A stretch of 41,006 nt of DNA from positions 1-41,006 of the forward strand of contig JAAETJ010000424.1 of NCBI GenBank assembly GCA_024228495.1, read 5' to 3'. How positions within the stretch are numbered: position 1 is the stretch's first letter; the number at the start of each line of letters is the position of its first letter. A program made the position numbers and the translations under genes. This DNA is from a bacterium (lineage in GTDB: Bacteria > Pseudomonadota > Alphaproteobacteria > Rhizobiales > JAKIUO01). The notes under the pieces are model-generated. The model saw only the letters and a program-made list of their open reading frames with translations, did no database searches and was not told where the DNA came from. Of this stretch, positions 3,195-25,799 are shown one piece after another.

Positions 3195-5127
3195 CCGGCT
3201 CTTCAATCATCGCTTCTGGAAGGTCGGGCTGAACCGCCATGATGATCTCTTCGAGGGGTAGTTGTTCGTCGAGAATGAGTGCCTGAGCGGTCGCGATATT
3301 GTTTGTGCCAAGACCAGGCAGAGGACGAGGCGGGCGGCCCTGATGAGCGAGTTGCATGATCTGCTTCCAAAGAATCGCTGGCAGCTTGCCACCACTTACT
3401 CCGTTGGTGGGGGTGTTATTGTCATTGCCTGCCCAGATCCCACAGGTGAAATAGCCGCTATAGCCAATGAACCAGGCGTCGCGATAGCTCTGGGTGGTGC
3501 CGGTTTTGCCAGCGCTGGCATGATTGTCAAGCCGCGCCCTTTTGCCTGTACCGGTGCGCATCACAGCCCCCAGCATATCGTTCATGTCATAGATATAGGC
3601 GGGCTCAACAATGCGCACATGGTGCGGGTCCCTATATTCATAGACCAGCTCATCGTGAGTGGTTATTACTTCCTTGATGACATGGGGCGGGGCGCGAAAG
3701 CCACCGTTCATGAACGGCACATACGCGCCCGTCATTTCAAGCGGTGTGACTTCACTGGAGCCCAGCGCCAATGAAGGTCGCTTGTTAAGCCTTGAGTGGA
3801 TGCCAAGCCGTTTGGCAGTTTGGATTACCTTCTCTAACCCCACATCATCGGCAAGCTTGGCGGCGATACTGTTGATCGAGCCGGCCAGCGCCTTGCGAAG
3901 CGTAACCGGGCCACGATGAAATCTTGCATAATTGCGTGGGCGCCATCCCTCGATCTTGATGCGCTCATCCATTTCGATACTGTTGGGGCTGCGTCCACTT
4001 TCCATGGCGGCCAAAAAGACAACGGGCTTGAAGCTTGAGCCGGGCTGGCGGTGGGCCTGCGTGACCCTATTGAACTGACTGTGCTCATAAGAGGTGCCGC
4101 CAATCATCAGCTTTATACCGCCTGCTTCATCAAGCAGAACCGCGGCGGCCTGATCGATATTTTTTTCCTGCCGATTGGTTTCGATCATCTTGCGAACCAG
4201 TTTTTGTGCGAGCACCTGCCAGTTGAAGTTGAGGGTGGTTTTAACGATGAGGTCAGTTTCAATGCGCCCAACGCGATCCTTTAGCTGTTCCATGATCCAG
4301 TCAAGAGCATATTCGGTGCCGATAGTCCGACTTTTTGCGCGCGCTGGCTTATTAAGACGTGCTGGTTGATCTTCCGCGAATTTGGCTTGTGCGCGGCTGA
4401 TCGCACCAGTCGCCACCATATTGTCGAGCACCACGAAAGCGCGTTGATGAGCGCGTGCGAGGTTTTTACTTGGTGAATAATAGGAGGGTGCTTTTAGCAA
4501 TCCAGCGAGGAGTGCGGATTCGGCCAGATCCAGATTTGTCGGGGATTTGTCAAAATAGCGGCGGGCCGCAGCCGTGATGCCATGACTGGCACCAGCGCCG
4601 AAATAAACGCGGTTGAAATAAAGCTCGAGAATTTGCTCTTTGCTGTAATGTTGCTCCAGCCACAAGGAGATCACCAGTTCGCGAAGTTTGCGCGTCAATG
4701 TGCGTTTTCGTGTTAAAAAGACATTTTTAACGAGCTGCTGCGTGATGGTGCTGCCGCCTTCACGCAGGCGACCTTTCGAGAGATTGTTCCAGATAGCGCG
4801 CCCTAGCCCCTGGGGATCAAGCCCCCAATGGGAGAAAAAGCGCCGGTCTTCTGTCGAAAGGACCGCGTCGATCAAGCTTTGAGGAAGCGCACCAAGTGAT
4901 ATACCGGCATGCCGGATGCCACGTTTGGCCAGCACATGGCCATCATCTGCAAGCAGGGTGATCGTGGGAGATTTTTGATTGAGGGTGGTGCGTAGATCAT
5001 CCGCATAATTGCGATCAAACCACCAGAAAAAGGCGGTGCCCGTCAAGGTCAGCACAATCAAAGTAAAAGAAATGAATTTTGCAAAACCGATGAGGACCGA
5101 AGTTTTGTCAAAATCAATACGACGCAT
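3148..5127 (-). CDS. Class A penicillin-binding protein, PBP1A family
   Basis: This bifunctional peptidoglycan synthase has 659 residues, polymerises glycan strands and cross-links peptides, and is anchored in the inner membrane by one helix (about 15-37). The GT51 transglycosylase domain shows STEDRRFF (91-98, catalytic Glu93) and GGSTITQQLVKN (124-135). The transpeptidase shows SxxK at S364-K367 (PGSSFKP), SIN at 417-419 and KTGT at 541-544. All catalytic motifs are present. An upstream TTG at 5160 would add 11 residues; I chose the ATG because MRRIDF leads directly into the membrane helix. The 3' end overlaps the opposing DUF1287 gene. The last 40 residues are acidic and variable. Confidence 0.95.
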   Translation of the reverse strand: MRRIDFDKTSVLIGFAKFISFTLIVLTLTGTAFFWWFDRNYADDLRTTLNQKSPTITLLADDGHVLAKRGIRHAGISLGALPQSLIDAVLSTEDRRFFSHWGLDPQGLGRAIWNNLSKGRLREGGSTITQQLVKNVFLTRKRTLTRKLRELVISLWLEQHYSKEQILELYFNRVYFGAGASHGITAAARRYFDKSPTNLDLAESALLAGLLKAPSYYSPSKNLARAHQRAFVVLDNMVATGAISRAQAKFAEDQPARLNKPARAKSRTIGTEYALDWIMEQLKDRVGRIETDLIVKTTLNFNWQVLAQKLVRKMIETNRQEKNIDQAAAVLLDEAGGIKLMIGGTSYEHSQFNRVTQAHRQPGSSFKPVVFLAAMESGRSPNSIEMDERIKIEGWRPRNYARFHRGPVTLRKALAGSINSIAAKLADDVGLEKVIQTAKRLGIHSRLNKRPSLALGSSEVTPLEMTGAYVPFMNGGFRAPPHVIKEVITTHDELVYEYRDPHHVRIVEPAYIYDMNDMLGAVMRTGTGKRARLDNHASAGKTGTTQSYRDAWFIGYSGYFTCGIWAGNDNNTPTNGVSGGKLPAILWKQIMQLAHQGRPPRPLPGLGTNNIATAQALILDEQLPLEEIIMAVQPDLPEAMIEEPVIEPVSRKADSDNGP

Positions 5128-5284
5128 GGGAAACAACCTGTAACAACTGACAAGACACAAACACCCACAAACATGTGAGAATTGTTGGCTAGTTTACCGA
5201 CGCGGGCTTACACTATGGTTAATGAAATGAAAATAAGGGCGGTTGGTATATGCCCGCAGATTTGAAAACAGAGGATTGATCTAC

Positions 5285-5656
5285 ATGCGCTATTTGTATT
5301 TGCTGGCGGGACTGCTTTGTATTGGCACGCTCATCGTTCATGCCTTGATGGGCGGCATCGAGACACTTAATCCGGTGATGGCCAGTCCGCTTGTACTGGA
5401 AATACGAGTGGCTATACTGGCGATCTGGCACGGCATGACGCTGGTGTTTATCCTCTCTGCCATGGCCTTTTTCTGGGCCTTTGCGGCTGATCGGAGCAAA
5501 TCCCGTGCTGTTGGTTTGTTGCTTGGGTGTTTTTATGCGCTTTTTGGCGGTCTTTTCGCCACTTTGTCGTTTTTGTGGTTCGAAGATTTGATGATTTTAC
5601 CCCAGTGGACCTTGCTTGCTCCTATTGGTATATTTGCGCTAATTGCCTCAATTTAA
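5285..5656 (+). CDS. Small four-helix membrane protein, function unknown
   Basis: This 123-residue protein is mostly hydrophobic, with four likely membrane helices at about 4-22, 39-63, 74-97 and 103-121. The ATG at 5285 is preceded by AGAGGA at a good distance; the open frame extends upstream to 5243 but without a better start. Motifs worth noting are HALMGG near the first helix and AIWHGM at the second. It resembles uncharacterised alphaproteobacterial integral membrane proteins and I cannot assign a function. It is divergent from the PBP gene upstream and separated by about 100 bp from the hydrolase gene downstream. Confidence 0.7.
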   Translation: MRYLYLLAGLLCIGTLIVHALMGGIETLNPVMASPLVLEIRVAILAIWHGMTLVFILSAMAFFWAFAADRSKSRAVGLLLGCFYALFGGLFATLSFLWFEDLMILPQWTLLAPIGIFALIASI

Positions 5657-5758
5657 TCAATTTTTGTCTTCTTCACTGCTTTTATACTTCTATATGCCTA
5701 TACTATAAGAGAAATTTTAAGTGGGACTTGAATAAGTTGAAATGTTCGAGTGAGGCAC

Positions 5759-6886
5759 ATGACATTTGTTAATGGTATATTGGACAAGATAGGCGACGGG
5801 ATCGCCCGCATATTGTCGCGCGAAACAAGTGGCTATGAGCCCTTTACGCCGTCTGATCCAGAAACATTGGAGCGCGTGCTCCTGCCAGGCGACGTGTTAC
5901 TAGTCGAGGGCAATCAAAAAGTTTCCGCTGGCATTAAATATCTCACCCAGTCAACCTGGTCACATGCTGCCCTCTATATTGGAGAGGCGCTGGAAGAGCG
6001 TGATGAAGACGGTAAACGCCGCACCCTTGTGGAGGTCAATCTTGGTGAAGGCTGTGTGGCGGTGGCCCTTGATAAATACCAATGTTACAACACCCGCATC
6101 TGTCGCCCCGTTGGCCTGACGCGCAATGATCGTAAAAAAGTCGTCGATTTCATGGTCGGCAGTCTTGGCCTCAAATATGATATGCGCAATATCATCGATC
6201 TCATGCGCTATTTGCTGCCTACGCCACCTATTCCTGTACGCTGGCGCCGTCGTTTGATCTCGATTGGCAGTGGCGAACCGACCAGAGCCATTTGTTCCAC
6301 GCTTATTGCGCAGGCTTTTCAGTCTGTAAAATATCCCATGTTGCCGCGCGTCCAGCGTATTCGCAAGCATGAAAAGCAGCATGGACTTGGCACCTATACG
6401 CGGCAGGAAATTTTGCATATTCGTCATCACAGCTTGTTTGCGCCGCGCGATTTTGACCTATCTCCCTATTTCAAGATCGTCAAGCCGACGGTTGAACATG
6501 GTTTTGACTATAAAACGCTCGAATGGGGTACATTGACCTACGAAACGCCTGAATCAGACAAGGTCGATCCAAAACAGCTCGACGAAGTTGTGGAGCATGA
6601 AAAGGTTCACATTAAAAAAGCCGTCGATGTGAGTGCTACTGCTTCGAAAGCCAAGGATTACAAGGGCGACAAACCCAAGAAAAAAACCGATAGCAAGATA
6701 CAAAATAATGACCGAACTCTGGTGCTCAATAATAGTATTCACGCTCTTTCACGCGGTTCCCTCAACAAGTTTGCGCGCAGCGGCAATCACGCGTTTTGGA
6801 AGAACGGTCTTCCTGTCAGCCTATTCGGTGATCTCGCTGGTCATGTTCGCATGGCTGTTCATCGCCTTTTGGCGCGCCGAACATAG
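5759..6886 (+). CDS. YiiX/YebB-like NlpC/P60 cysteine hydrolase with overprinted C-terminus
   Basis: The protein has 375 residues. The YiiX/YebB-type permuted papain-like domain is visible in residues 40-240: PGDVLLVEG (43-51), STWSHAALYIGE (65-76, His69), LVEVNLGEG (90-98, Glu92) and RAICSTLIAQAF (176-187, likely nucleophile Cys179). Family members act on peptide or lipid-linked amide or ester bonds; the substrate here is unknown and there is no signal peptide. The ATG at 5759 follows GAGTGAGG; an in-frame GTG at 5750 is the alternative. Residues about 300-330 are Lys/Asp rich. From residue 317 onward the frame runs through the start of the nnrU-like gene, a 179-bp overlap, so the tail is probably not ancestral. 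Confidence 0.85.
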   Translation: MTFVNGILDKIGDGIARILSRETSGYEPFTPSDPETLERVLLPGDVLLVEGNQKVSAGIKYLTQSTWSHAALYIGEALEERDEDGKRRTLVEVNLGEGCVAVALDKYQCYNTRICRPVGLTRNDRKKVVDFMVGSLGLKYDMRNIIDLMRYLLPTPPIPVRWRRRLISIGSGEPTRAICSTLIAQAFQSVKYPMLPRVQRIRKHEKQHGLGTYTRQEILHIRHHSLFAPRDFDLSPYFKIVKPTVEHGFDYKTLEWGTLTYETPESDKVDPKQLDEVVEHEKVHIKKAVDVSATASKAKDYKGDKPKKKTDSKIQNNDRTLVLNNSIHALSRGSLNKFARSGNHAFWKNGLPVSLFGDLAGHVRMAVHRLLARRT

Positions 6887-7397
6887 CGGTGCCTATTTTG
6901 TAACCTCCTTTGGCGTACGCGCCTTAAGCGCCGTCTTGTTGCTGGCCGCATTCTGGCTGTTTTCAGCGGCGCTCATTCGCAAACCTCCCATCTTGTTGAC
7001 TGCTGAAACAGTGCTATGTGAGCAGGGCTCGATCTTTGGCGTGTTGCGTATAACCCGTCATCCGTTTTTGTGGGCGCTGGTTTTGTGGGCCAGCGTGCAT
7101 ATTGTGAACAATGCCGATCCAGCCGGTCTGGCCTTGTTTGGTTATTTCTTGACGTTGGCGCTGCTCGGGACGTGGCCCATCGACAAAAGGCGTGCGCGTT
7201 TGATCGGCGACGAGTGTTGGCGCGAGATTTTGAGGGATACTTCGAATCTACCCTTCGCAGCTATTTTTAGCGGTCGTCAGAGCTTGTTTTCTGCGATTAA
7301 AGAAATTGGCTGGATGGTGCCAATTGTAGCTATTGCCGCTTGGGCATTTGTGCTCACATTCCACGAGACCTTCTTCGGCCTGCCGGTGTTTTATTGA
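6708..7397 (+). CDS. NnrU family integral membrane protein
   Basis: This 229-residue protein has about six membrane helices and the NnrU/isoprenylcysteine-methyltransferase-like pattern. Features include FTLFHAVPST near the N-terminus, RITRHPFLWALVLW in the middle (His at the end of a helix) and TWPIDKRRARLIG before the last helices. NnrU proteins were first linked to nitrite/nitric-oxide reduction loci, and a plant relative (Z-ISO) is a haem-dependent carotene isomerase. No denitrification genes are visible here, so a specific role cannot be given. The ATG at 6708 is the first start at which hydrophobic family sequence begins; the open frame extends to 6633. It lies inside the 3' part of the upstream hydrolase gene in another frame, so translation is probably coupled. 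Confidence 0.85.
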   Translation: MTELWCSIIVFTLFHAVPSTSLRAAAITRFGRTVFLSAYSVISLVMFAWLFIAFWRAEHSGAYFVTSFGVRALSAVLLLAAFWLFSAALIRKPPILLTAETVLCEQGSIFGVLRITRHPFLWALVLWASVHIVNNADPAGLALFGYFLTLALLGTWPIDKRRARLIGDECWREILRDTSNLPFAAIFSGRQSLFSAIKEIGWMVPIVAIAAWAFVLTFHETFFGLPVFY

Positions 7398-7450
7398 TTT
7401 GGTGTCATTCCGTACCAGTTTGTTGACTTGGTATCCGAATGATAGTTTTA

Positions 7451-7565
7451 CCTCCTCTCCCTCCTTCTTCTCTCCCCATGGGAAGGGGGATAAGAGGTGC
7501 AGGTCAAGAAGGCCATTTGCTTTTTACTCCCTCTTCCACGAGGAGAGGGTCGGGGTGAGGGGGAA
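7451..7565. repeat. C/T- and G/A-rich intergenic palindromic repeat
   Basis: The 216-bp gap between the convergent nnrU-like and pbpC genes contains two imperfect hairpins. One pairs TCCCC (7473-7477) with GGGGA (7486-7490). The other pairs CCCTCTTCC (7529-7537) with GGAGAGGG (7542-7549) with one bulge, and is followed by TCGGGGTGAGGGGG. This resembles the dispersed repeats of the type CCCTCTCC...GGAGAGGG-TCGGGGTGAGGG often seen between genes in Rhizobiales and other proteobacteria. It could double as a bidirectional terminator for the two converging genes. Only one copy was seen in this window. Confidence 0.5.
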
Positions 7566-7613
7566 GGCTATCAGTTATTTCCTAAACTCTCATACTTGTT
7601 GGAAGCTCGCCTC

Positions 7614-9719
7614 CTATTCCACTCGTACTAGCACACTATCGGCGCGTCCCAGCGCGTCCAGAACACCCAATAGCACAAAGCCCTTCTCATGGGGTTTCCA
7701 AAAGGTCGTACGTCGTGCGCGATTGGTCTTGATGGGAGCGCCATTAATCATCCATGTGAGGGGCAGTTTGCCGCCTTCCGCTTTCATGGCGAGCAATTCG
7801 AAATGGCCGTTTTTATCAAGAGAAAGCGGCAATTGCGAACCATTGTGGGGGAAGGCTATTTTAACCGACGGATTGAGGCTGGTGCGTTCCGCATATTGTG
7901 TATCAGTGCGCTCGAAATGGCGCATGGTGGCGGGCAGCTCCGCGGATGAATGGGCCATCAGGGTGCCGCTTGGGGCGGGGGACAGCGGCGTTAACGGGCG
8001 GCCCAGTTGTTCAAAAGCATTAAACAAGGCGGGCGCTGCGGCGGTACGCCCGGTGAGGCCGGGACTAGCCGTGCCATCGGGGCGCCCGGCCCAGACAATG
8101 ATGGTGGTTTCCCCGTCGAATCCGGCGGCCCAGGCATCTCTGTAGCCATAAGAAGTACCAGTTTTATAGGCGATCTGACCTCTGCGGGCATTTTTGGGCG
8201 GCGGTGCATTGGCGAGAATATTACCAACCTGCCAGGCTGCCTGTTCGCTCATCAAGCGCACACCGGTGCCGCGCCTGCTTTGCTGGCTGGTATTTTTACG
8301 CCAACTCAGATCGATCATTTCACCGCCGCGTGCCAGTCCCACATAGGAGCGGGCAAGGTTCTGCACGGTGATGCCGAGCCCTCCAAGCACCATCGACAGG
8401 TTTGGTTTGGTACCTATAGGTGTTTTGAGATCAACGCCTATTTGCCGAAATCTGGCAAGCATGCGTGTTGGTCCCACCTTGTCCAGTATTTTGACTGCTG
8501 GAATATTGAGGGACAGTTGCAGTGCCTTGGCAACGCTCAAGGTACCGCTCCAGCTATCATCAAAATTCTTTGGTTTGTATTGGCCAAAGCGGGTGGGCAC
8601 ATCATCAATCAGAGTTTGCGGATGGGCCAGTCCTTCTTCGAACGCCAGGCCATAGATAAAGGGCTTGAGCGAAGAGCCGGGAGAGCGAACCGCCTTGATC
8701 ATATCGATGGGACCATGAAACCGGTTTTCTAGAAAATTGGGAGAGCCGACATAGCCGAGGATCTCACCGCTTGCGTGATCAATGGCAAGGATGGCCAGCG
8801 AATGTTTGTCGCCAAGCCTTGCAGCATGGGTCAAGGCCAGTGCCTGCAAGCGTTGCTGCAAAACCTTATCGATGGTCAATCGGTGAATGCTTTTGGCCGG
8901 GAATGATTTATTTTCGCTTTGCGCCAGATGTGGTGCAAGTTTTGGAAAGTTCAAACGCTTGCTTGGTACAGCTTCCAGCATTGCACGTTTTGCTGCTGCA
9001 AGCGATATGACACCGCTGTTGGCTGCGCGCATCAAGACCCGGTTGCGGGCTTTTTGGGCGCGTTTACGGCGTCGGTCAGGGCGGCGCATTTCGGGTGATT
9101 GCGGTAGCGCGACGAGCAGAGCGGATTCAGCCAGCGACAGGTGGCGAGGTTCGCGGCCAAAATAGGTGAGGGATGCGGCGCGAACCCCTTCGAGATTGCC
9201 ACCAAAAGGCGCAAGACGCAGATAAAGCGAAAGTATTTCATGCTTGGAAAACTGCCGTTCAAGTTCAAAGGCCCGGATGGTCTGACGAAATTTGGCAGTT
9301 ATCGTGCGCTTGTTGCGAGGCTCTAAAAGGCGTGCCACCTGCATGGTCAGGGTGGAGGCTCCAGAGATGATGCGGCCGTTCAAAAGCAGCTGTTTGAGAG
9401 CACGTAAGCTCGCCAAAATATCGATACCTCGGTGGTTGTAAAAGCGCTTGTCCTCATAATTTAGCAAGAGCTTCAAATATGTCGGATCGACCTTGCGTGG
9501 ATCAACCGGCAAGCGCCAGCGCCCGGATTTGGTGGTAAACGCGCGCAACAACTCGCCATTGCGGTCCAGCACAATGGTCGAGAGATCATCGGCCTTGGTG
9601 ATCGAGAGCGGACCCATTTTCTGGGTGGCTAATTTGATGCTTCCATAGGCTGAGAGTAAGCAGACTACCAACAGTAGTCCCCCAATTTTCCTCTTAATAT
9701 CAGAGGACTTACTTTTCAT
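7614..9719 (-). CDS. pbpC: Penicillin-binding protein 1C
   Basis: This 701-residue bifunctional peptidoglycan glycosyltransferase/transpeptidase has an N-terminal signal anchor (12-30). GT51 motifs are NYEDKRFYNHRG (87-98, Glu89) and SGASTLTMQVAR (119-130). The transpeptidase motifs are S349-x-x-K352 (PGSSLKP), SLN at 403-405 and KTGT at 519-522. The last about 90 residues (FPHNGSQLPLS onward) are the BiPBP_C domain typical of PBP1C. The ATG at 9719 overlaps the end of the alpha-2-macroglobulin gene by 11 bp, which indicates translational coupling. The pairing of pbpC with an alpha-2-macroglobulin gene is well known (yfhM-pbpC in enterics) and is read as a repair-and-protection pair. Confidence 0.96.
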   Translation of the reverse strand: MKSKSSDIKRKIGGLLLVVCLLSAYGSIKLATQKMGPLSITKADDLSTIVLDRNGELLRAFTTKSGRWRLPVDPRKVDPTYLKLLLNYEDKRFYNHRGIDILASLRALKQLLLNGRIISGASTLTMQVARLLEPRNKRTITAKFRQTIRAFELERQFSKHEILSLYLRLAPFGGNLEGVRAASLTYFGREPRHLSLAESALLVALPQSPEMRRPDRRRKRAQKARNRVLMRAANSGVISLAAAKRAMLEAVPSKRLNFPKLAPHLAQSENKSFPAKSIHRLTIDKVLQQRLQALALTHAARLGDKHSLAILAIDHASGEILGYVGSPNFLENRFHGPIDMIKAVRSPGSSLKPFIYGLAFEEGLAHPQTLIDDVPTRFGQYKPKNFDDSWSGTLSVAKALQLSLNIPAVKILDKVGPTRMLARFRQIGVDLKTPIGTKPNLSMVLGGLGITVQNLARSYVGLARGGEMIDLSWRKNTSQQSRRGTGVRLMSEQAAWQVGNILANAPPPKNARRGQIAYKTGTSYGYRDAWAAGFDGETTIIVWAGRPDGTASPGLTGRTAAAPALFNAFEQLGRPLTPLSPAPSGTLMAHSSAELPATMRHFERTDTQYAERTSLNPSVKIAFPHNGSQLPLSLDKNGHFELLAMKAEGGKLPLTWMINGAPIKTNRARRTTFWKPHEKGFVLLGVLDALGRADSVLVRVE

Positions 9720-12700
9720 TGACGATCTCCACGAAGCCGCTTGCAGTACTGGCGACACGCTCGGGGCGGTACATGTCCTCAACGCTGGCAGGACCGTGGG
9801 TGTAACGTCCAGGAGCAACCGCGCGGATCACATAGGCGGTGGAGACTGAGCTGGCATTGCCTTTTTTCAGATCATAGGCCGCCAGAAAGCGATCATCCCG
9901 GAACTCCACATGTTTGGGGGTGGATTTTTCCAGCCATGACAGAGCGGAGAGATCTGCTGATGAAACAAGCCGCGGATTATCGATCTCAAAACCGGCGGGC
10001 AGAGGATCAGAGATCATGATCTGACCACCAATGGGCTTGCCTTCTTGCACTTTGATGACCGTGATCAGCCGTGTGTTTTGGGCGACCCTTGAGGGATCAA
10101 CCTTCTCACCAGTCAGAGTGAAATATTCACGCTTTATCGTGAAGCCATTGGCGCGTGGTGGTTCGGGTGTTTCAGGTGAGCCAGAGATAGTGATGGTGGC
10201 GCGGGCATTGGCGTCCCCCATATTGGTGACCTGATAGGGGGTTTGCAGATCATCGCTTGCGAGGCTTTTGACCAAGGTGCCGGTGTGGCGCGTGCCATTC
10301 AAATCGAGCTGATAGGTCTTGGCTTCTTCAAACAGTGCATTGGCAGCAAGCAGCAGCCACGCCTTTTCCTGCGTATTAGTGCGGGGGGCCGCCATATTGC
10401 TCTGATGCTTTTCAAGAACGTGGCCCAGTGATGGCAATAGGCTATTGCGTAGACCGGTTTCGGAGACAAGCGCCAGAGTCGCGGCTCCATCACGCAGGGA
10501 CGAGCCATAGTCGGAGCTGTAGCGGCGCCTGTTGACACCAAGTTCCTTGTCTAGCTTGCCAAGGGCGTTGTAATAGACCTTTTTGGCGCGCACCTGATCG
10601 CCATACATCGAGAGGGCCGTTGCCAATTGTGCCTTGGCCATCGGATTGGCGAACGCGTTGAGTTTTTCGTCGGCATAATAGCGCAGTTCTGAGAGTCGGG
10701 CTCGTTTGTTGCGGGCCAGCACATAGAGCGAGTAGGCCACCGATTCACCGCCATATTTAAAATCTGAGGCATATTTGAGGGTGTTGGAGAGTTTGTCGAG
10801 CGCGAAGGTCAGATTGCGCTGGGGCACATCAAATCCTTTTTCGCGGGCTCTCGTCAAAAACTCGGTGACATAGGCGGTCAGCCACGAGCTGCCATTGCTT
10901 GTCGACCACAGGCCAAAGCTGCCATTATGACCTTGACGCGATATCAGCTTGTCGATGGCTTTCTGGATGGTTTTCTTAAGGTCCTGATCCTTTTCTTCGA
11001 GGATCCCGGCACGTTCTGCAACACTTGACAGATAGAGCAAGGGCAGAGCGCGAGAGGTGATCTGTTCCGAGCAACCATAGGGATAACGATCCAGCGAGGT
11101 CAACAATCCCGGGATATCTGGAAGATTGGCAGGACCGATTGACAAGGTGGCTTTTTCTGTTCCAGATACAAGACCCGTGAAAATATCGCTCGACAGGATC
11201 AGCTTATTGCCAGCAGATACTGTGCGCACTGATTGTCTGGTAACGCTTGGATAGGCCGGTTTGACCGGGATTACATAATCTCTGGCAATATCAATCCCGT
11301 CCGGTCCGGTCAGATGAATACTGACCATCGCTTTGCCAATCGCGTTGGGCGTGAGAGGGATGCGAATTGTGTGTTTTTGATCAAAAGCCAGTTTGACTTT
11401 GAAATTTTGTGATGCGGTGATGGTGCCTTCTCCCTCATTGCCAAGCGCGCTGGTCAGCTGGAGATCATAATCGCCTTGCGAGCCTTCTACATTGTGCAAT
11501 ACCAGATGTAATTGCGAGTGATCTCCCTTGGTCAGGAAACGAGGCGTCGTACCAGTAACAATCACTTGGTCGCGCACAATAACGTCCTTGGCGGCATGGC
11601 CCATCTTGTCTTTACTCCATGCCACGGCCATGATTTTTACTGTGCCGTTAAAAGCTGGAATATCGAAATGCAGGATTGCTTTGCCCTGTTCGTCCACAGC
11701 CACAACGCCGCTAAACAAAGCGAGGGAGCGTTGGTCGGGAGGGTTGCCGTTCATATTCATACCGCCTGCAGCACCCGGGCCATCACCGCCGGAACGAATA
11801 GAGCCTCGCACGCCTTGCATGCCATCAATCAAGCGGCCATAGAGATCGCGAAACTCGGTGCCGAGCTGACGCTGGGACAAGAAATGTTTTTCGGGGGAGG
11901 GAGGCTGGTAACCGGTGAGGTTCAAGATGCCCACATCAACGGCGCTGGCCACCACATATGCCTTGGCACCGGGCGTCAGACCCTTGAGTGTGATTGGTAC
12001 ATCCAGCGATTCATCGGGGCGGATTTTTTGCGGCGTTTGCAGGTTGAGGGTCAAGACACGCTTGTTGTGCCCGGCGTTCAGCCAGGTGATGCCAATGGCA
12101 CGGCTCGGCATGCGTTTATTGTTAATGTTCATGGGCCGATAGAGACTGACCGCGACATAAGCCCCGGCACCCCAGCTGTCATCGACGATCATATCGGTAG
12201 TGCTGGATCCTTTTGGCACGCTGACCGTTTTCATGGCCCGGATGCCGCCATTCAGCACCGTGATAAGGGCCTTGCCAGGCATGCGAGAAACAATACGCAA
12301 CTTGGCAGTTTCACCGACATTATAATCGGTTTTATCGAGCGCGACATCGAGCATGTCGGGCGTGTCGGAGACGGCGGTTGCGTACCAGCCGGCATTAAAT
12401 TCATAACTTGCGGCGGGGCGTCCATTATCATCGGATCGGACTTCAAGGCGGAACTGTCCCCATTTGATCGCAGATGAAAGGCGGATGGGCTGATCGGCCA
12501 GAGCATCAATTGTGCCGGTGGCTAGGCGTTCTTCGGAAGTGATCCTCTCATGGCTCCAGCGGCCATCATTTTGGTACCATTGATAGCGGCTGTTCAGCTT
12601 CACCAGTTCCCAGGTAAGATTTTTAAAATCACGCTGCTTGCCATTGACGCCCATCACCGCGACATCGAATGCGGCGGTACTGTTTTCTGACAGATCATCA

Positions 12701-14964
12701 AACAATGGCTTGATGCCGATAAGTGCGGTCCGGGGTTCAACCGGCACGCTCATCTTGCGCTCGATGGAACGACCAGAGGGGTCGCGCAGGCGCAAGGTGA
12801 TTTTTGCCTGTAGCGGTTTGGTACTTTCTGGCAGCACGGGCAGTTTGGTGATGGCCACGGCTTTGCCGCTGTCATCTGTTCGTGGCAGATCGTTGAAGAT
12901 GTGGCGGGTGGCTTTGACTTTTTCGCTCAACAAGCCAAAGTGATAGCCTTTGAAGCCTTTTATCTCATTGGTATTTTCGGTGATCTGCATTTCGCCTTCA
13001 ATGGCATGATCCTTGGCGGGAGCGCCATACAGATATTTGCCGTCGAGATTGATTTTGAGCGGTGTTTGTGCCGACAGGGCCGTTGTTTTGCTGGACACCG
13101 TCAAGTCCATGCGCTCTGGCACGAAGTCTTCCACCAGAAACGAGGTTTTCCCCAGTGCGTCGCCTTTGACATCCGTGTAGGCCAGCACCTGCCAGGTGCC
13201 GGTTTTTGCCGAAGCTGGCAGGCTGAGGGAAAATGTACGACCACCAAGCCCTTGATCCTTGACAACGTAGCGTTTATATTCGCGGTTGTCTGGGCGCATG
13301 AATTTGAAGGTCAAAGGCAGGTTAGAGAGGGCCTTGGCTTCAAGGTCCCGCGCCAAACCTGTGACATGCACCACTTCGCCGGGTTTGTACACACCTCGTT
13401 CCGAGAACAGCTGTACATCCACCGGTCCAGGGGTTGCGCGCCCGGTGACGCCACGATCAGAGAGATCAAAAGCGGGGCTGGTAAGATCGAGAAAGGCGTA
13501 ATCGCCGTGTTTGGTCTGCGCCACAATCATGGCGGGGCTCATGCCACCTTCACCTCGGGCAAGGGAGGCTGAAAAGCTCACAAAACCACCGCCATCTGTG
13601 GTCTGGGTGCCCAGCACCTGATTGTTCTTAGCGATTAAGCGGATCGTGGCTCCAGAGATCATGTCAGCGCTCTCGAGCGAGCGCACAAAGGCGTGCACAC
13701 CATCTTTGCCAATCAGGCCCGAGAGACCAAGGTCAGAGACGATGAACCATTGTGTGGTTTTTCGTTTCCAGTCATCAGCTGGTTTGTTCGTGGTATCCGC
13801 CACCATCACATAGAGACCGGATTGCAGATTAGGGATGGCCTTTTGTACAGGAAAGGCGGTGATCACATCCTTGTTGAGTTTTTGTGCGACATCGAGTGTA
13901 CCCTCCCAGATACGCTCGCCGAGCCGGTCTTTCAGCTCTTCAACATTATATCCCGCCAACTGCTTGAGAAAATCGCCTTGCACCGCGCTGCCAAGACCAC
14001 GATCGCTGTACCGGTAAATCTTTGCATAGATTATTTTGGTATTGACGCTGGTCATGGGAATACCGATCTGGCCTGAACGTGGCAGCACGTATTTGTTGCC
14101 GGAAAGACGAACGGATGGGGAGCGGTCTTTGACATAGACAGAAATCTCCACCGATTTTTTGAGATCATCATCGATCTGGGCGGGGATGCCAGCGCGAAAT
14201 TTGACCTTGTAGCGTTTTCCGTGTTGCAAGCCATCAATGCAAAGCTGACGGCCAGAAGTTGTGACGGCTGGTTTGTTGCTGCCTTGCAGGACGGTGTATT
14301 TGGCGTAGTCCGCGCCTTTTTTCAGTATTTCGGAAAAATTGGCGCACAGGCGTGGGGCCGTGCTGTTACTGTCGATATTGTAGTCCAGCATGCGAAAGCC
14401 GTGTTTTTTGTAGAGCGCATTATATTTTTTGCGAGCCGAGGCCTGTTCCAGATACTTTAGGCTCGATTGCAAAACGGTCAGGCTGGCGCGCCAGCTCTGG
14501 CGTCGTTCAAATGCCGACCCTAGCAGGCTCAAGGCATAGGCTTTGTCGCGGGTAGTTTGAGCACCCTGATAGGCCATGTACGCAGCCGCTCCTGCACGTT
14601 CGGGAAAGGTATAGCGCTCTTTATAATTTTCGGTTTTGGTCCAAAGCTGCGCTCGGGCAAGCTGCAATAAAGCGTTTGTGCCAGCCCCAGCAACATAGGC
14701 AGCTTCAAAGAAACTCACAGCTTTGCGATAATTTTTTTTGGCATTTACGAGGGCGCGCCCGCTGCGCATCAGGTCGTTGATATTTTTTGATGCCGATTTA
14801 TGGATTTGTTTCATCAGGGCATCATATCGCCCGGCTTCACCAGCCACCTGTTTGTTGGTGTAAATGCTTGCAGCATTGGCCGGGAGCACCATCAACAACA
14901 GTGAGACAAATAATGAGAAGAGGAAGTATGGATTGGAGCGAGAAGCGAAGCGAGAGGCGATCAT
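9709..14964 (-). CDS. Bacterial alpha-2-macroglobulin family protein
   Basis: At 1751 residues this is the largest gene here. It is a predicted periplasmic protease trap that would shield the cell when the wall is breached, acting with PBP1C. A signal peptide covers about 1-31 (hydrophobic run then LPANA-AS). There is no lipobox cysteine, so unlike many relatives it looks soluble. An alpha-helical N-terminal segment (about 40-190) is followed by macroglobulin beta domains, including a MG2-like VYKPGEVVHVTGLARD. The thioester is YPYGCSEQ with Cys1298 and Gln1301, and then comes the alpha/alpha toroid region (LTAYVTEFL). A Gly/Met/Asn-rich loop near residues 1058-1075 is the probable bait or linker. 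The start codon has only a weak ribosome binding site. Confidence 0.95.
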   Translation of the reverse strand: MIASRFASRSNPYFLFSLFVSLLLMVLPANAASIYTNKQVAGEAGRYDALMKQIHKSASKNINDLMRSGRALVNAKKNYRKAVSFFEAAYVAGAGTNALLQLARAQLWTKTENYKERYTFPERAGAAAYMAYQGAQTTRDKAYALSLLGSAFERRQSWRASLTVLQSSLKYLEQASARKKYNALYKKHGFRMLDYNIDSNSTAPRLCANFSEILKKGADYAKYTVLQGSNKPAVTTSGRQLCIDGLQHGKRYKVKFRAGIPAQIDDDLKKSVEISVYVKDRSPSVRLSGNKYVLPRSGQIGIPMTSVNTKIIYAKIYRYSDRGLGSAVQGDFLKQLAGYNVEELKDRLGERIWEGTLDVAQKLNKDVITAFPVQKAIPNLQSGLYVMVADTTNKPADDWKRKTTQWFIVSDLGLSGLIGKDGVHAFVRSLESADMISGATIRLIAKNNQVLGTQTTDGGGFVSFSASLARGEGGMSPAMIVAQTKHGDYAFLDLTSPAFDLSDRGVTGRATPGPVDVQLFSERGVYKPGEVVHVTGLARDLEAKALSNLPLTFKFMRPDNREYKRYVVKDQGLGGRTFSLSLPASAKTGTWQVLAYTDVKGDALGKTSFLVEDFVPERMDLTVSSKTTALSAQTPLKINLDGKYLYGAPAKDHAIEGEMQITENTNEIKGFKGYHFGLLSEKVKATRHIFNDLPRTDDSGKAVAITKLPVLPESTKPLQAKITLRLRDPSGRSIERKMSVPVEPRTALIGIKPLFDDLSENSTAAFDVAVMGVNGKQRDFKNLTWELVKLNSRYQWYQNDGRWSHERITSEERLATGTIDALADQPIRLSSAIKWGQFRLEVRSDDNGRPAASYEFNAGWYATAVSDTPDMLDVALDKTDYNVGETAKLRIVSRMPGKALITVLNGGIRAMKTVSVPKGSSTTDMIVDDSWGAGAYVAVSLYRPMNINNKRMPSRAIGITWLNAGHNKRVLTLNLQTPQKIRPDESLDVPITLKGLTPGAKAYVVASAVDVGILNLTGYQPPSPEKHFLSQRQLGTEFRDLYGRLIDGMQGVRGSIRSGGDGPGAAGGMNMNGNPPDQRSLALFSGVVAVDEQGKAILHFDIPAFNGTVKIMAVAWSKDKMGHAAKDVIVRDQVIVTGTTPRFLTKGDHSQLHLVLHNVEGSQGDYDLQLTSALGNEGEGTITASQNFKVKLAFDQKHTIRIPLTPNAIGKAMVSIHLTGPDGIDIARDYVIPVKPAYPSVTRQSVRTVSAGNKLILSSDIFTGLVSGTEKATLSIGPANLPDIPGLLTSLDRYPYGCSEQITSRALPLLYLSSVAERAGILEEKDQDLKKTIQKAIDKLISRQGHNGSFGLWSTSNGSSWLTAYVTEFLTRAREKGFDVPQRNLTFALDKLSNTLKYASDFKYGGESVAYSLYVLARNKRARLSELRYYADEKLNAFANPMAKAQLATALSMYGDQVRAKKVYYNALGKLDKELGVNRRRYSSDYGSSLRDGAATLALVSETGLRNSLLPSLGHVLEKHQSNMAAPRTNTQEKAWLLLAANALFEEAKTYQLDLNGTRHTGTLVKSLASDDLQTPYQVTNMGDANARATITISGSPETPEPPRANGFTIKREYFTLTGEKVDPSRVAQNTRLITVIKVQEGKPIGGQIMISDPLPAGFEIDNPRLVSSADLSALSWLEKSTPKHVEFRDDRFLAAYDLKKGNASSVSTAYVIRAVAPGRYTHGPASVEDMYRPERVASTASGFVEIVNEK

Positions 14965-17394: not shown

Positions 17395-17727
17395 ATGAGT
17401 GATCAAAAAGAACAGCCGGAAAAGCAATTGTTGCATATGGTGTTTGGCGGCGAATTGAGCGATCTGTCAAAAGTATATTTCCGTGATCTGGATGAGCTTG
17501 ATGTGGGTGGAATTTTCTCCAATTGTGCCACCGCGTTTGATGCTTGGAAGTAGGCCGCGCATAGCACGGTTGACAATGCGCATATGCGCTACTTCATCGT
17601 TCACATGCATCGCTTGTTTGACCCCGTGGACGAGAAGACGTGGAAGTTGAATAAAGCGCTCCAACCAGCTACTTTTGTACTAATAATACGAAGATCCACC
17701 GGACCAGAAAAGGCCTCCAAAACGTGA
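17395..17727 (+). pseudogene. DUF4170 gene interrupted by an in-frame TAG
   Basis: The first 52 codons encode the start of a DUF4170 protein (QLLHMVFGGELSDLSKVYFR, then GIFSNCATAFDAWK). A TAG at 17551-17553 then stops the frame. The same frame continues directly with the rest of the domain (STVDNAHMRYFIVHMHRLFD) and stays open to TGA at 17725-17727. From memory of the family, the Lys-Ala-x-Ala segment of the domain spans the stop. No frameshift is needed; one base change explains it. The last 30 residues or so go beyond the usual family end. The TGA overlaps the GTG start of the next gene as GTGA, so the full-length gene would have been coupled to the exporter gene. Several neighbours end normally in TAG, so readthrough is unlikely. 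DUF4170 function is unknown. Confidence 0.85.
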
Positions 17728-19535
17728 AAGACAGCCTCTTTAAGGATGTGCGCGAGATTGAGCGCGTGGATGATGCCCTCCAGAAGGACTATTCCACAAG
17801 GCAGATTGTCGAACGTGTCTGGCGCGAAAATCTCTATCCACGACGCAAGCTGGTTATATTGGCTCTGGTCGCAATGCTATTTGCAGCAGCCACAACCGGG
17901 CTCATGGTGCCGGCGATTAAATTTGCGATTGACGATATCTTCGTGGCGCGAAAGATGGAATTTGTCTACTATCTGGCCGGGGCAACTTTTCTCATCACTC
18001 TTATCAAATCGGTTTCGGAATATATCTCCAAACTGACGATGGGCTATCTTGGCAACCGGTTCATTGCTGATATTCGTATCTCACTGTACGAAAAACTGAC
18101 CTATGCGGATATGCAATGGATCGAGGGCACACATTCTGGTTTGTTCTTGTCCAATTTTCTGAATGATACCAATTTCATTCGCGATACCGCCAGCCGGGTG
18201 ATCATCGCGCTGGGCGAAAATCTCACCAAGGCTTTGTTTCTGGCGTTGGCAATGATCTGGCTTGATCCGCTGATGTCGATGATCATTCTGCTCTCCATGC
18301 CGCCTGCGATCTTTTTCATGAACCGTCAGCGCGGGGAAATGAACCTTGCCACCAAGAAAACCCTGCAAGAAACTGGTAATCTGAGCAAGTTGATTTCGCA
18401 GACACTGCGCTCCTTGCGCGTGGTGCGCGCCTATGGTCAGGAAGAGCGCGAAATAAAGCGCGCCAAGCAAGCTATTGAACGCGCCCTTGAGTTCAGCATG
18501 CGGTCCTTGCGGGCGAGATCCAAATCGGGGCCGGTAGTGGAGCTGTTGGCTGGCGTGGGTTTTTCAGGGGCGATTTTGTTTGCTGGTATGGAAGGGGCGC
18601 AAGGGCGCATGACGATTGGTGAGTTCAGCGCCTTTTTGGCCGCCGCCATGTTGCTCTATCAACCGCTCAAAGCATTGGCGCAATTGCAGGTCAGTTTGCA
18701 AGAGGGGGTGGCGGCATCCGGGCGGGTGTTTGGCATTATCGATCAGCCGCAAACAATGCTCGAACCGGTGGATGCAACAGACTTGAAACTGGACAAGGGA
18801 TCTATCAGTTTCAAAAATCTTGACTTTGCCTATGAGGATGGCAATCCTGTCCTGACCGATTTTACCCTGGACATCCCAGCGGGTAAATCAGTAGCCTTGG
18901 TTGGGCCATCCGGGGCTGGAAAAAGCACCATTCTCAATCTGGTGTTGCGGTTCTTTGATCCGACTAAGGGAAAAGTTTTTATCGATGGTCAGGATATTTC
19001 ACAGCTCAAGCTGAGCTCGCTTCGTGCCCATATTGGCCTTGTAACACAGGATCCGATTTTGTTCGATGATACGCTGGAAGCCAATATCGCTTATGGCTCC
19101 AGACAGATCGTGCCTGGCAAGGTAGAAAAGGCTGCCAAGGCCGCTGCAGCCGATGATTTTATCGTGGCATTTCCGCAAGGCTATAAATCGCCAGCAGGGG
19201 AGGCTGGCAACAATCTGTCTGGCGGCGAGCGCCAAAGGGTCGCCATTGCGCGGGCTTTCATGCATGATGCCCCCATTTTGTTGCTGGATGAACCAACCAG
19301 CGCGCTCGATAGTCAGGCGGAGGAAAAGGTACAAAAAGCTTTGTCTGAACTGATGATGGGCCGCACTGTCTTGATCATTGCCCATCGTTTGTCGACCATC
19401 AAGGATGTTGACATTATTTGTGTTCTTGACAAGGGACGCATTGTCGAACAAGGCACTCATGATATGTTGCTGGCTTCAGGCGGCCTTTATTCAAAGCTAT
19501 ACAAGACCCAGTTTGAAGGACAAGGCGAGATTTAA
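17724..19535 (+). CDS. msbA: ABC exporter, MsbA-like (lipid A flippase type)
   Basis: This 603-residue half-transporter carries an ABC transmembrane domain (about 40-330, six helices) and a nucleotide-binding domain. Walker A is GPSGAGKST (about 394-402), the Q-loop is VTQDP, the signature is LSGGERQ (about 497-503), Walker B is ILLLDEPTS (about 518-526) and the switch His is in AHRLS (about 553). Placement between cysQ/DUF4170 and waaA-lpxK supports transport of lipid A or core LPS to the periplasmic leaflet, but MsbA-like exporters are hard to separate by sequence from lipid or drug exporters. The GTG start overlaps the end of the broken DUF4170 frame by 4 bp. AAGG upstream serves as ribosome binding site. 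Confidence 0.88.
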   Translation: MKDSLFKDVREIERVDDALQKDYSTRQIVERVWRENLYPRRKLVILALVAMLFAAATTGLMVPAIKFAIDDIFVARKMEFVYYLAGATFLITLIKSVSEYISKLTMGYLGNRFIADIRISLYEKLTYADMQWIEGTHSGLFLSNFLNDTNFIRDTASRVIIALGENLTKALFLALAMIWLDPLMSMIILLSMPPAIFFMNRQRGEMNLATKKTLQETGNLSKLISQTLRSLRVVRAYGQEEREIKRAKQAIERALEFSMRSLRARSKSGPVVELLAGVGFSGAILFAGMEGAQGRMTIGEFSAFLAAAMLLYQPLKALAQLQVSLQEGVAASGRVFGIIDQPQTMLEPVDATDLKLDKGSISFKNLDFAYEDGNPVLTDFTLDIPAGKSVALVGPSGAGKSTILNLVLRFFDPTKGKVFIDGQDISQLKLSSLRAHIGLVTQDPILFDDTLEANIAYGSRQIVPGKVEKAAKAAAADDFIVAFPQGYKSPAGEAGNNLSGGERQRVAIARAFMHDAPILLLDEPTSALDSQAEEKVQKALSELMMGRTVLIIAHRLSTIKDVDIICVLDKGRIVEQGTHDMLLASGGLYSKLYKTQFEGQGEI

Positions 19536-19582: not shown

Positions 19583-21613
19583 GTGAAAGACAAGAACGCA
19601 GAGCGTATAAATAACCTGACATCCTGGCTGATGGCTCGCTATATCAAACTGGTGTTTGCGACCTCGAAGCGCGATGATGATTATGGTCAACTCAAAGACA
19701 GTTTTGCGAGAAATGCCCCGCTGATTATCGGCGGCTGGCATGGCACTTTTTTGTTGGCGCCGATTTTAATGCCAGAACCTGGCGAGGTCAGTGCTGTTGT
19801 GGCGCGTCATGGCGATGCTGCCGTCATGGGGCGCATGCTGGAGCGCTTTGGCGTCAAGCTGATCCACGGCGCCGGGGCAGGGGGCAAAAAGAAAGACAAG
19901 GGCGGCATGTTTGCACTGCGTGCTTCGTTGCGTGAGCTAAAAGCCGGGCGCTCTATCGCCATGACGGCCGATGTGCCACCAGGTCCGGCGCGTCAGGCCG
20001 GGCTGGGGATTATCACTATTGCGCGCCTGTCCGGGCGGCCTATTTTACCTTGTGCCGCCGTCACGTCCCGTTTCAAAGTGCTCAATACGTGGAGCCGGTT
20101 CGTGATCAATCTGCCATTTTCTAAATTGGTTTTGCTGTCGGGAGAACCGGTATACGTACCAGCAGATGCCGACAAGCAGATGATGGAAGCCAAGCGCGTT
20201 GAACTTGAAACCAAAATCAATGATCTGGTGGCGTGCGGGCATGAAATGGTTGGCGTTGATCCCTTGTTGAGCGCGCCGCCAGAAGTTGGCGTGCATCAAA
20301 AGCCGGGGCTGGTACTGAAGATATATCGTAGTGGCATGAGGTTGATGCAACCTCTCGCGCGCCCGATATTGCGACGCCGTGCCAAACGAGGCAAAGAAGA
20401 TTTGTCGCGTATGTCCGAGCGCTTTGGTCGTGCAACCATCCAAAGGCCTGCTGGCGATCTTATATGGTTTCATGCAGCAAGCGTTGGTGAAACCAATGCG
20501 GTGCTGCCATTGATCTCCTTGTTGCTGGAAAAAAAACTAGCTCAATCCATCTTGCTGACGACCGGCACGGTGACTTCGGCGCGCATTGCCGCAAAGCGAT
20601 TGACAACCGGGGCCTTGCATCAGTTCATTCCCCTCGATACGCCAGCCTTCATTAAGCGTTTTCTCGATCATTGGCGGCCAGACCTTGCCTTGCTGGTAGA
20701 ATCAGAAATCTGGCCCAATCTAATGCTCGAAACCAGTGCTCGCAAGATACCTGTGGCACTCATCAATGGTATCATATCGCAAAAAAGTTTTCGCCACTGG
20801 CGCCGTTGGGGTAGTCTGTCACGTCCTTTGTTTGGGCGCTTTGATCTCGTGTTGGTGCAAAACGAGCAATTGCAAAAACGCATTATAAGGCTTGGTGCCC
20901 CTGATGTGCGTGTGGTGGGAAATCTGAAAATTGATGCCCCGGCTCTGCCCGTTGACGAGTTGAAAAAACATCAATTGTTGAAATGGATCGGCGCGCGCCC
21001 TCATTTTCTTGCGGCCAGCACTCATCCTGGTGAAGAGCGCCAGATCATAGAGGCTCACAAGAAGCTGCGTCAGCAATTTCCTGATTTACTGACCATCATT
21101 GTGCCGCGCCATCCAGAGCGCGGCGATGAAATTTTTGAGCTGGTCAGTGATAGCGGGTTTGAATGCGTCAAGCGCTCAAGCGGTGAGCCTCTCATAAAAA
21201 AAACGGATCTCTATATCGCCGACACGCTTGGTGAGCTTGGTCTGTTCTTCGATATTTCAAACATCATTTTTCTGGGGGGCTCGCTGGTGGAAATAGGCGG
21301 GCACAATCCCATTGAGGCGGTGCGCTTTGGCACTGCGGTACTCACGGGGCCAAACTGGCGCAATCAGAACGACAGCTTTCACGCTTTATTGCAAGGCAAG
21401 GGAGCGCTGGAGGTCAACTCCGGGCGCGAGTTGGCCGATAGCATTCTCACCTTGATGAGTAATGAGCAAGAACTCTTGCAGCTGCTTGCCAATGCCGAAA
21501 AGATCGTAGAGGAAATGACCGGGGCAATCGATCGTACTTTGGAGGCGATCACACCGATGTTGCCAGCCGAAAGGCGTGCGGCAGATAAACAAAATAATGA
21601 GCTGGCGACATGA
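19583..21613 (+). CDS. waaA: Fusion of DUF374 acyltransferase-like domain with Kdo transferase WaaA
   Basis: One uninterrupted 676-residue frame joins two proteins usually encoded separately. Residues 1-225 are DUF374 (lysophospholipid-acyltransferase-like): GGWHGTFLLAPI with its His, VVARHGDAAVMGRMLERFG, and MTADVPPGPARQAGLGIITI. Residues about 245-660 are 3-deoxy-D-manno-octulosonic acid transferase (KdtA). This half has GKEDLSRMSERFG holding the proposed catalytic Glu, WFHAASVGETNAVLPLI (295-311), VESEIWPNL, and GGSLVEIGGHNPIEA near the end. The linker is about 20 residues (SAPPEVGVHQKPG). WaaA adds Kdo to lipid IVA at the inner membrane. The start is GTG. lpxK begins in an ATGA overlap. 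Both halves keep their key residues, so both are probably active. Confidence 0.93.
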   Translation: MKDKNAERINNLTSWLMARYIKLVFATSKRDDDYGQLKDSFARNAPLIIGGWHGTFLLAPILMPEPGEVSAVVARHGDAAVMGRMLERFGVKLIHGAGAGGKKKDKGGMFALRASLRELKAGRSIAMTADVPPGPARQAGLGIITIARLSGRPILPCAAVTSRFKVLNTWSRFVINLPFSKLVLLSGEPVYVPADADKQMMEAKRVELETKINDLVACGHEMVGVDPLLSAPPEVGVHQKPGLVLKIYRSGMRLMQPLARPILRRRAKRGKEDLSRMSERFGRATIQRPAGDLIWFHAASVGETNAVLPLISLLLEKKLAQSILLTTGTVTSARIAAKRLTTGALHQFIPLDTPAFIKRFLDHWRPDLALLVESEIWPNLMLETSARKIPVALINGIISQKSFRHWRRWGSLSRPLFGRFDLVLVQNEQLQKRIIRLGAPDVRVVGNLKIDAPALPVDELKKHQLLKWIGARPHFLAASTHPGEERQIIEAHKKLRQQFPDLLTIIVPRHPERGDEIFELVSDSGFECVKRSSGEPLIKKTDLYIADTLGELGLFFDISNIIFLGGSLVEIGGHNPIEAVRFGTAVLTGPNWRNQNDSFHALLQGKGALEVNSGRELADSILTLMSNEQELLQLLANAEKIVEEMTGAIDRTLEAITPMLPAERRAADKQNNELAT

Positions 21614-22644
21614 GCGTGTTTGTCAAAGCTCCCAAATGGTGGCAACTGTCACGCCATCCTCTCTCTTATCTGTTGGTTCCGCTTGGCATGGTCTATGGAT
21701 TGGCGGTCAAGCTGCGTTTTGCCCTGATAAAACCTTATCACTCCACATTGCCGGTTATTTGCATCGGCAATTTTACGGTTGGCGGCGGCGGTAAGACGCC
21801 TTTGGCTATTGCAGTTGCCAAGCTTTTGAGTGAGGCAGGCTACAAGCCGGTCATACTCACCAGAGGTTATGGCGGCCAGACCCAAGGGCCGCATTTGGTT
21901 GATCATTCAGTGGACAGCGCTGTTGGCGTTGGCGATGAACCCTTGATCCTCGCGCAATTCGCACCGGTCGTGGTGTGCGCAGATCGGGCCAGGGGGGCGC
22001 GCTTTATCGAACAAATGGAAGCTGATGTTATTTTGATGGATGATGGTTTTCAAAATCCCACTCTGAGCAAGGACCTCTCGCTCATCGTGCTGGATGCGAT
22101 GGCGGGCGTTGGCAATGGTCGCATTTTTCCAGCCGGACCCTTGCGGGCCGCGTTGGCTTTTCAGATGCCCCAAACCGATATCTTGGTACTAAGTGGCCCC
22201 CCTCCAGTGGGGACGACAGGATCAGCGACTGCGATCGAGAAGGCTTTTGCACGGCAAATATTTCACAGCGATATTGTTGCCAAGGGCGATAACCGCTGGC
22301 TGAAGGGGGCGACCATTTCTGTGGTTACAGGGATTGCCCGGCCTGATAAATTTTACGGGAGTCTTCAAGCGCTTGGGGCGGTCATCGTTGAAATGTATGA
22401 GTTTCCCGACCATCACAGTTTCAGTGAGCAGGAGGCCAAAGATATTCTGATCGCCACACAGATTGATGAAACGCAAATCATCATGACCCAAAAAGACTGG
22501 GTCAGACTACCGGCTAACGGCGAACGCGGCCGCTTGCGCAAGGTCGCAAAATTTCTTGAGGTAGAGGTTAAGATCGACCATCCCGACCGATTGCTGGAAC
22601 AATTGCAAAAAACTATTTCTGCGGTAACTCGATATAGCGCTTGA
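21610..22644 (+). CDS. lpxK: Tetraacyldisaccharide 4'-kinase
   Basis: LpxK phosphorylates the 4' position of the lipid A disaccharide at the inner membrane. The 344-residue protein has an N-terminal membrane-associated helix (about 20-40), the P-loop GNFTVGGGGKTP (53-64), LTRGYGG (83-89), and the DDGFQ motif (144-148, catalytic Asp). VTGIARPDKF and EFPDHHSFSE in the C-terminal half are also conserved. The ATG overlaps the stop of the DUF374-WaaA gene as ATGA, so it is translationally coupled. Its last 32 bp are antisense to the end of the convergent DUF2093 gene. Confidence 0.96.
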   Translation: MSVFVKAPKWWQLSRHPLSYLLVPLGMVYGLAVKLRFALIKPYHSTLPVICIGNFTVGGGGKTPLAIAVAKLLSEAGYKPVILTRGYGGQTQGPHLVDHSVDSAVGVGDEPLILAQFAPVVVCADRARGARFIEQMEADVILMDDGFQNPTLSKDLSLIVLDAMAGVGNGRIFPAGPLRAALAFQMPQTDILVLSGPPPVGTTGSATAIEKAFARQIFHSDIVAKGDNRWLKGATISVVTGIARPDKFYGSLQALGAVIVEMYEFPDHHSFSEQEAKDILIATQIDETQIIMTQKDWVRLPANGERGRLRKVAKFLEVEVKIDHPDRLLEQLQKTISAVTRYSA

Positions 22645-24758: not shown

Positions 24759-25799
24759 CTATTTCCTTGACTTCTTTTGCGTCGATCGGTGAAACGCTTT
24801 CAACCTTGAAGCGTTATCACCGCGCAATTGCCACGACATGCAGCGAACACCTCCGCCCATAAAGCAGACATCACTTGAGGCGACCGGTACAACCTCACGA
24901 ATCGTAGCAGCCCTGACTTGTTTCAGGGCAATTGCATCCTGAGGTATACCAAATTGCGGAAAATAAATGCGCCTGGGTGTGACGAGGGCATTTGTATAGA
25001 GGCCACAAGCCGAACCAAAGCGACTATCGTGAATTTTCGAGCCATTATAAGGCGTGATGATCTCATGAATTTTTACGCCCGGTAACCCGCGCCGCAGATC
25101 CTTCTTGAGATCTTGCATATATTCTGGATCACTCGGATAAGAATTGATGATGAGTGTGTTGGTATCGACAAAACTGACGACGCCATCTGCATGTTCGAGG
25201 CCGCCTTGTTCGTCGGATTCGATAAAAGCGACATGATGGACACCTGCGAGTTTTCGTAGTTTATCGCGAGCCGCTTGTTCTGAGAGCTTGTTATCACGCA
25301 AAAACTTCCGGCTGATGACCGCATTGCCTGCATAGTCATCAACAAAATTTCCACCATCATTCAGCAGGTTGCTTTCCTTAAAAGAGAGTGCTGCCTGCTC
25401 CGCGTAGGCCGCCAGTTCTTCTTGCAGGGCGTCTGCATCCCACTGCCCACGTCGTCCGCCTCCCTGACCGGCCGCCGTGTAACGGAACATCAGGGGGGCG
25501 GTCGCATTTGACGTGCCAAAGTCCCGCATCCAGATATCCGACATGGGAGCCAAAGCAACCTTATCCGGGCCAAGCTCCTTGACATAGCGATCATATGCCC
25601 CTTTGTCGGTCAGAATGAGCATGTCATCCCGGCCTTCAATCTGCCTGGCATAGGCAATATGAAAATTGAAAATCTTGTCGGCGACATTGGCATAGTAAGG
25701 ATCGCCGGTTCGCGGTGCAGCAAGGACAATTAATTCTGCCCGGGCAATGTTTGTCATGAGTAGTCCAAAAGCGATTGACAGGTAGGTGGTGAGCTTCAT
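24759..25799 (-). CDS. Exported agmatine/peptidylarginine deiminase family protein
   Basis: This 346-residue member of the PAD_porph/agmatine deiminase family hydrolyses guanidino groups to ureido groups plus ammonia. A signal peptide (about 1-21, ARA-E) directs it out of the cytoplasm, unlike the cytosolic AguA. Catalytic landmarks are SDIWMRDFGT (Asp in the substrate pocket), NDGGNFVDD, EHADGVVSFV (His-x-Asp) and the nucleophile Cys320 in GGGVRCMSWQ. That makes the guanidine-modifying triad complete. The substrate could be agmatine, free arginine or arginyl peptides; periplasmic location argues for an external one. It stands between the gene-fragment mosaic and the AEC transporter, so it may be horizontally acquired cargo. 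Confidence 0.88.
   Translation of the reverse strand: MKLTTYLSIAFGLLMTNIARAELIVLAAPRTGDPYYANVADKIFNFHIAYARQIEGRDDMLILTDKGAYDRYVKELGPDKVALAPMSDIWMRDFGTSNATAPLMFRYTAAGQGGGRRGQWDADALQEELAAYAEQAALSFKESNLLNDGGNFVDDYAGNAVISRKFLRDNKLSEQAARDKLRKLAGVHHVAFIESDEQGGLEHADGVVSFVDTNTLIINSYPSDPEYMQDLKKDLRRGLPGVKIHEIITPYNGSKIHDSRFGSACGLYTNALVTPRRIYFPQFGIPQDAIALKQVRAATIREVVPVASSDVCFMGGGVRCMSWQLRGDNASRLKAFHRSTQKKSRK

Follow-up and report, generated by a model that had tools for sequence, protein, structure and literature searches.

The late acyltransferases of E. coli require Kdo, whereas characterised LpxJ can work without it (a property seen in the enzymes of three Epsilonproteobacteria). DUF374 proteins are LpxJ, lipid A late acyltransferases that add a secondary acyl chain, and their activity has been shown for R. 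typhi and for three Epsilonproteobacteria, with no requirement for Kdo in the latter (PMC6148475, PMC6286764). In R. typhi LpxJ, residues W60, H61, D86, D132, W172 and D173 are each essential, while H84 is not, and the D173A mutant is inactive (PMC6148475). WaaA proteins, which transfer Kdo, differ in the number of Kdo residues that they transfer, and Arg212, Asn273 and Glu276 of A. aeolicus WaaA are CMP-binding (PMC6286764). A natural fusion of lipid A cluster neighbours, like the one reported here, is known in LpxC-FabZ of Bacteroidetes, Chlorobi and Verrucomicrobia, although LpxC-FabZ involves other enzymes, an early pathway step and unrelated lineages (PMC3087551). We found no description of an LpxJ-WaaA fusion in the open-access literature searched.

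The window (the whole stretch of 41,006 nucleotides that was analysed) contains a fused lpxJ(DUF374)-waaA gene at 19583-21613 on the plus strand, with a GTG start and a TGA stop. The frame is open for 676 codons with no stop, and the 676-aa product matches both PF04028 (DUF374; residues 67-136, E 3.4e-16, 59 bits against a curated cut-off of 26.8) and PF04413 (Glycos_transf_N; residues 276-451, E 5.3e-62, 209 bits against a cut-off of 23.9), bearing out the single DUF374-WaaA frame proposed in a sequence-only reading of this DNA. The LpxJ/DUF374 acyltransferase half, delimited by the PF04028 match and residue conservation, comprises residues 1-224 (19583-20254, plus strand) and carries the motifs W52-H53 (block I), H76-x-D78, D130 and W170-S171. 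The linker between the conserved blocks is ~18-20 residues long (about residues 225-242; 20255-20308, plus strand), in agreement with the earlier estimate of about 20, and is followed by the WaaA (Kdo transferase) half at residues 243-676 (20309-21610, plus strand). NCBIfam WaaA models match the fused protein at residues 243-664, the best of them (NF004387) scoring 436 bits over residues 243-660, under its curated 617. The fused protein shares with A. aeolicus WaaA/KdtA (2XCI/2XCU) the equivalents of E31, R212, N273 and E276 (E303, R509, N575 and E578, as aligned with 2XCI), of which we take Glu31 to be the catalytic base, and differs in having an acyltransferase attached N-terminally. An AlphaFold2 model of the fused protein, built from a 5-row alignment, had a pLDDT of 45 and was too poor to support a shared membrane face, and a PDB profile search for a DUF374 structure gave a weak PlsC match alone (E 0.011).

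The source genome has no DUF374 gene other than the fused one. The fused protein has no match to PF03279 (LpxL/LpxM), and the sole PF03279 gene of the genome sits elsewhere, on contig C80. One other late acyltransferase is typical for fused and split genomes alike (a genome of either kind has roughly one LpxL/M-type gene, and the counts therefore say nothing about a difference in role), and LpxJ is therefore the expected second. Immediately upstream on the same strand is a gene for an MsbA-like ABC exporter (17724-19535, plus strand; TIGR02203, 508 bits, below the cut-off of 602), and downstream is lpxK (21610-22644, plus strand), the start of which overlaps the stop of the fused gene (ATGA); a same-strand adjacent lpxK was present in 49 of 51 fused loci. 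The same cluster includes a gene at 17395-17634 (plus strand), which we take to be DUF4170-like, with an in-frame TAG at 17551-17553 where the congeners L033, L034 and L035 have Gln; this gene is either a pseudogene in the source genome or the site of a sequencing error.

The same uninterrupted joint frame is present in all four congeners (69-88% identical) and, at about 40-51% identity, in further families of the order. Uninterrupted joint matches were obtained in 48 of the 297 sampled genomes of the order, and fourteen families bear the fusion (f1, f2, f3, f7, f9, f10, f16, f18, f25, f30, f31, f33, f39 and f46); f32 is also fused, as seen as far as the contig end. The fused set that we examined directly consists of 51 genomes, one of them read only as far as its contig end. 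A frameshift error in the assembly at the linker, which the sequence-only reading had named as a danger to its claim, is ruled out by the occurrence of the same frame in the congeners and in many families of the order, and the proposed physical link between Kdo addition and DUF374 is real, lying in a conserved frame. Relatives with two genes and a stop between them had been named as a second danger; none of the four congeners has such a stop, but it is present in other families and in all other orders sampled. The majority of the remaining families of the order keep two genes, which either overlap out of phase or share a phase and are separated by one stop (the latter arrangement being that of f12, f35, f41 and f43). 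Outside the order, there was no joint frame without a stop among 385 genomes of the class, and the best joint matches contained one stop, which fell between the two genes in all nine that were read directly. Because the stop is present in other families of the order and in every other order sampled, the fusion is lineage-specific. A phylum-wide search at a strict threshold, which very distant convergent fusions would escape, returned no further fusions. One genome of f31 (G155; L117, C30:30000-32500) has a free-standing, Asp-type DUF374 gene away from waaA that groups with a sequence from another order, which suggests either horizontal transfer replacing the fused gene or a misbinned contig.

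Within the genus, dN/dS was 0.08-0.11 for the DUF374 half, 0.15-0.22 for the linker and 0.11-0.16 for the WaaA half. The linker is translated and under purifying selection, and its length varies within the fused clade. A scan of 12 fused loci revealed no internal start codon that is both conserved and accompanied by a Shine-Dalgarno-like sequence and, with the linker under selection, we reject an internal start yielding two products.

Of the 50 fused rows in the WaaA tree, 48 form one cluster. The main fused clade is supported by an SH-aLRT of 99 in the joint tree, with family f7 falling outside it. A tree constrained to hold all fused proteins and the re-split L118 in one clade had an lnL 10.2 better than that of the free search (p-AU 0.664), and a single origin of the fusion is therefore most likely, being preferred and not proven. 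An independent second fusion in f7, as suggested by the free trees, is not required, since the one-clade tree is better and f7 shares Ser171. Within the fused clade, G260 has been re-split via a 2-nt deletion in the linker (possibly a sequencing error), while in G236 and G252 WaaA is present but a genome-wide match to DUF374 is lacking; neither the covalent link nor the acyltransferase half is therefore indispensable. G236 has two tandem LpxL/M-type (PF03279) genes (C3:86420-88212), a pair that possibly replaces LpxJ, and G252 has one such gene only.

Like the free-standing LpxJ of R. typhi and the Epsilonproteobacteria, the N-terminal half belongs to the DUF374 family and matches W60-H61, H84-x-D86, D132 and W172 with W52-H53, H76-x-D78, D130 and W170, but it is covalently joined to WaaA and, in the fused clade, has Ser171 in place of the essential Asp173. 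The correspondence rests on motif spacing: W60, H61, D86, D132, W172 and D173 map to W52, H53, D78, D130, W170 and residue 171, with the spacing from W60 to H84/D86 the same in the fused protein and six inserted residues allowed for in the stretch from D86 to D132. In split homologues from other orders the Trp-to-Trp distance is in several cases 112 residues, exactly that of R. typhi. Codon 171 (AGC; 20093-20095, plus strand) specifies Ser, as it does in 50 of the 51 fused-frame proteins (the other, from f32, has Asn), whereas Asp occupies this position in each of the 50 homologues of the joint alignment that were never fused; the sole split protein with Ser is L118, a re-split descendant of the fused clade. 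Among the 625 aligned positions of both halves, position 171 is the best separator of fused and split proteins (JS 1.0). The main fused clade also has Pro133, where split proteins mostly have Lys or Arg, and Phe56, where split proteins of the order have His.

The remaining essential residues are kept: W52-H53, of which the His is the proposed catalytic base, in all but one of the 51 fused-frame proteins, that one having a gap; D78 and D130, equivalent to the essential Asp86 and Asp132, with Glu at 130 in three fused proteins; and W170. The essential Trp172-Asp173 pair is thus not intact (the Trp is kept and the Asp replaced), and the earlier statement that motifs are intact in both halves holds for the other essential residues but not for position 171, where all homologues examined outside the fused lineage have Asp. 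The half is recognisably a DUF374 homologue, but it may not act as a standard LpxJ. Because D173A abolished the activity of R. typhi LpxJ, Ser at 171 could mean that acyl transfer has been lost. However, evolution of the acyltransferase half is no faster than in split homologues (rate relative to WaaA, 1.071 in fused versus 1.065 in split proteins), and degeneration is therefore unlikely; Ser171 is fixed over deep divergence, many pairs being near 50% identical, and a constrained, altered active site is the simpler reading. The fusion and the substitution represent roughly one event each, and their association is therefore shared history, beyond test as a correlation.

On balance, we favour a bifunctional LpxJ-WaaA enzyme of single origin in which acyl transfer would have been retuned without loss of activity. 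The conserved translated frame, the retained catalytic residues, the preference for a single origin and the fixed Ser are shown, whereas we infer that both halves are active, how their two steps are ordered and coupled, and that specificity has changed. Judged by the functions of the two families, the protein would be one inner-membrane enzyme with a late acyltransferase of the LpxJ type at its N-terminus and the Kdo transferase WaaA at its C-terminus, both of which would share cytoplasmic-face lipid IVA coming from the adjacent LpxK. The WaaA half would transfer Kdo from CMP-Kdo to the lipid and the LpxJ half a secondary acyl chain from acyl-ACP, both steps preceding export through the adjacent MsbA-like transporter, and joining the halves would fix a 1:1 ratio and keep the lipid on which both act close at hand. 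Two adjacent, often overlapping genes would have become one when the stop that separated them was lost, a single time, in an ancestor shared by about 14 families, and in the same lineage the active site would have been retuned by the change of Asp173 to Ser, plus, in the main clade, Pro133 for Lys/Arg and Phe56 for His, substitutions that most likely altered acyl-donor or acceptor specificity with activity kept. Because the essential Asp has become Ser and the block III basic residue has been lost, we suggest, more tentatively, that the fused LpxJ may acylate another acceptor (such as Kdo-lipid IVA made in cis) or use a donor other than that of characterised LpxJ. The sequence-only reading was right to propose lipid A or a Kdo-lipid intermediate as the target of DUF374, DUF374 being LpxJ, but this was already established, and the proteins tested, those of the three Epsilonproteobacteria, did not require Kdo (PMC6148475, PMC6286764).

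Alternatively, the protein could be an ordinary LpxJ and an ordinary WaaA that act independently, the join being neutral or ratio-fixing and the Asp-to-Ser change an unrelated lineage marker. The genes are neighbours in many relatives, where they often overlap or share a phase with only one stop to part them, so that fusion is one step away, and fusion and Ser both trace to one ancestral lineage, placing a link between them beyond statistical test; we nevertheless consider this reading unlikely, as the fusion has been retained across about 14 families with its linker translated, Ser is fixed at deep divergence, and nearby active-site positions have been altered too. It is somewhat less likely still, in our view, that the acyltransferase half performs no acyl transfer and is kept as a scaffold that binds lipid or anchors WaaA in the membrane, leaving Kdo transfer as the only catalysis. 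Such a role would accommodate the replacement of the essential Asp in all fused proteins (by Ser, or by Asn in one), the change of the block III Lys/Arg to Pro, and the two members without DUF374 that keep WaaA (one of these having the tandem LpxL/M-type pair), but a scaffold would have no need of the catalytic-base His, which is kept nearly without exception along with both other essential Asp and both essential Trp; Ser is itself fixed, and the half shows no acceleration. An assembly artefact, or two proteins translated via an internal start, is scarcely credible: the source genome assembly is fragmented (1254 contigs), but the same frame is found in 51 genomes, of which several are assembled as a single contig, and both the selection on the linker and the scan of 12 fused loci for internal starts speak against two proteins.

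What is new here is the occurrence of the fusion across a large branch of one alphaproteobacterial order, its probable single origin and the fixed Ser, the LpxJ role of DUF374 being already known. The LpxJ-WaaA fusion of these ~14 families provides a single protein for studying whether acylation and Kdo transfer follow a set order or involve channelling, and the fixed Asp-to-Ser swap constitutes a natural experiment on the role of the essential LpxJ Asp.

Elsewhere in the window, the minus strand encodes two bifunctional penicillin-binding proteins within 3148-14964, one at 3148-5160 and the other, with a BiPBP_C domain, at 7614-9818. The latter adjoins a 1751-aa bacterial alpha-2-macroglobulin (9709-14964, minus strand), and the two are apparently the usual PbpC/macroglobulin pair. 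A further minus-strand gene, at 24759-25799, encodes a member of the Porphyromonas-type peptidyl-arginine deiminase family (PF04371).
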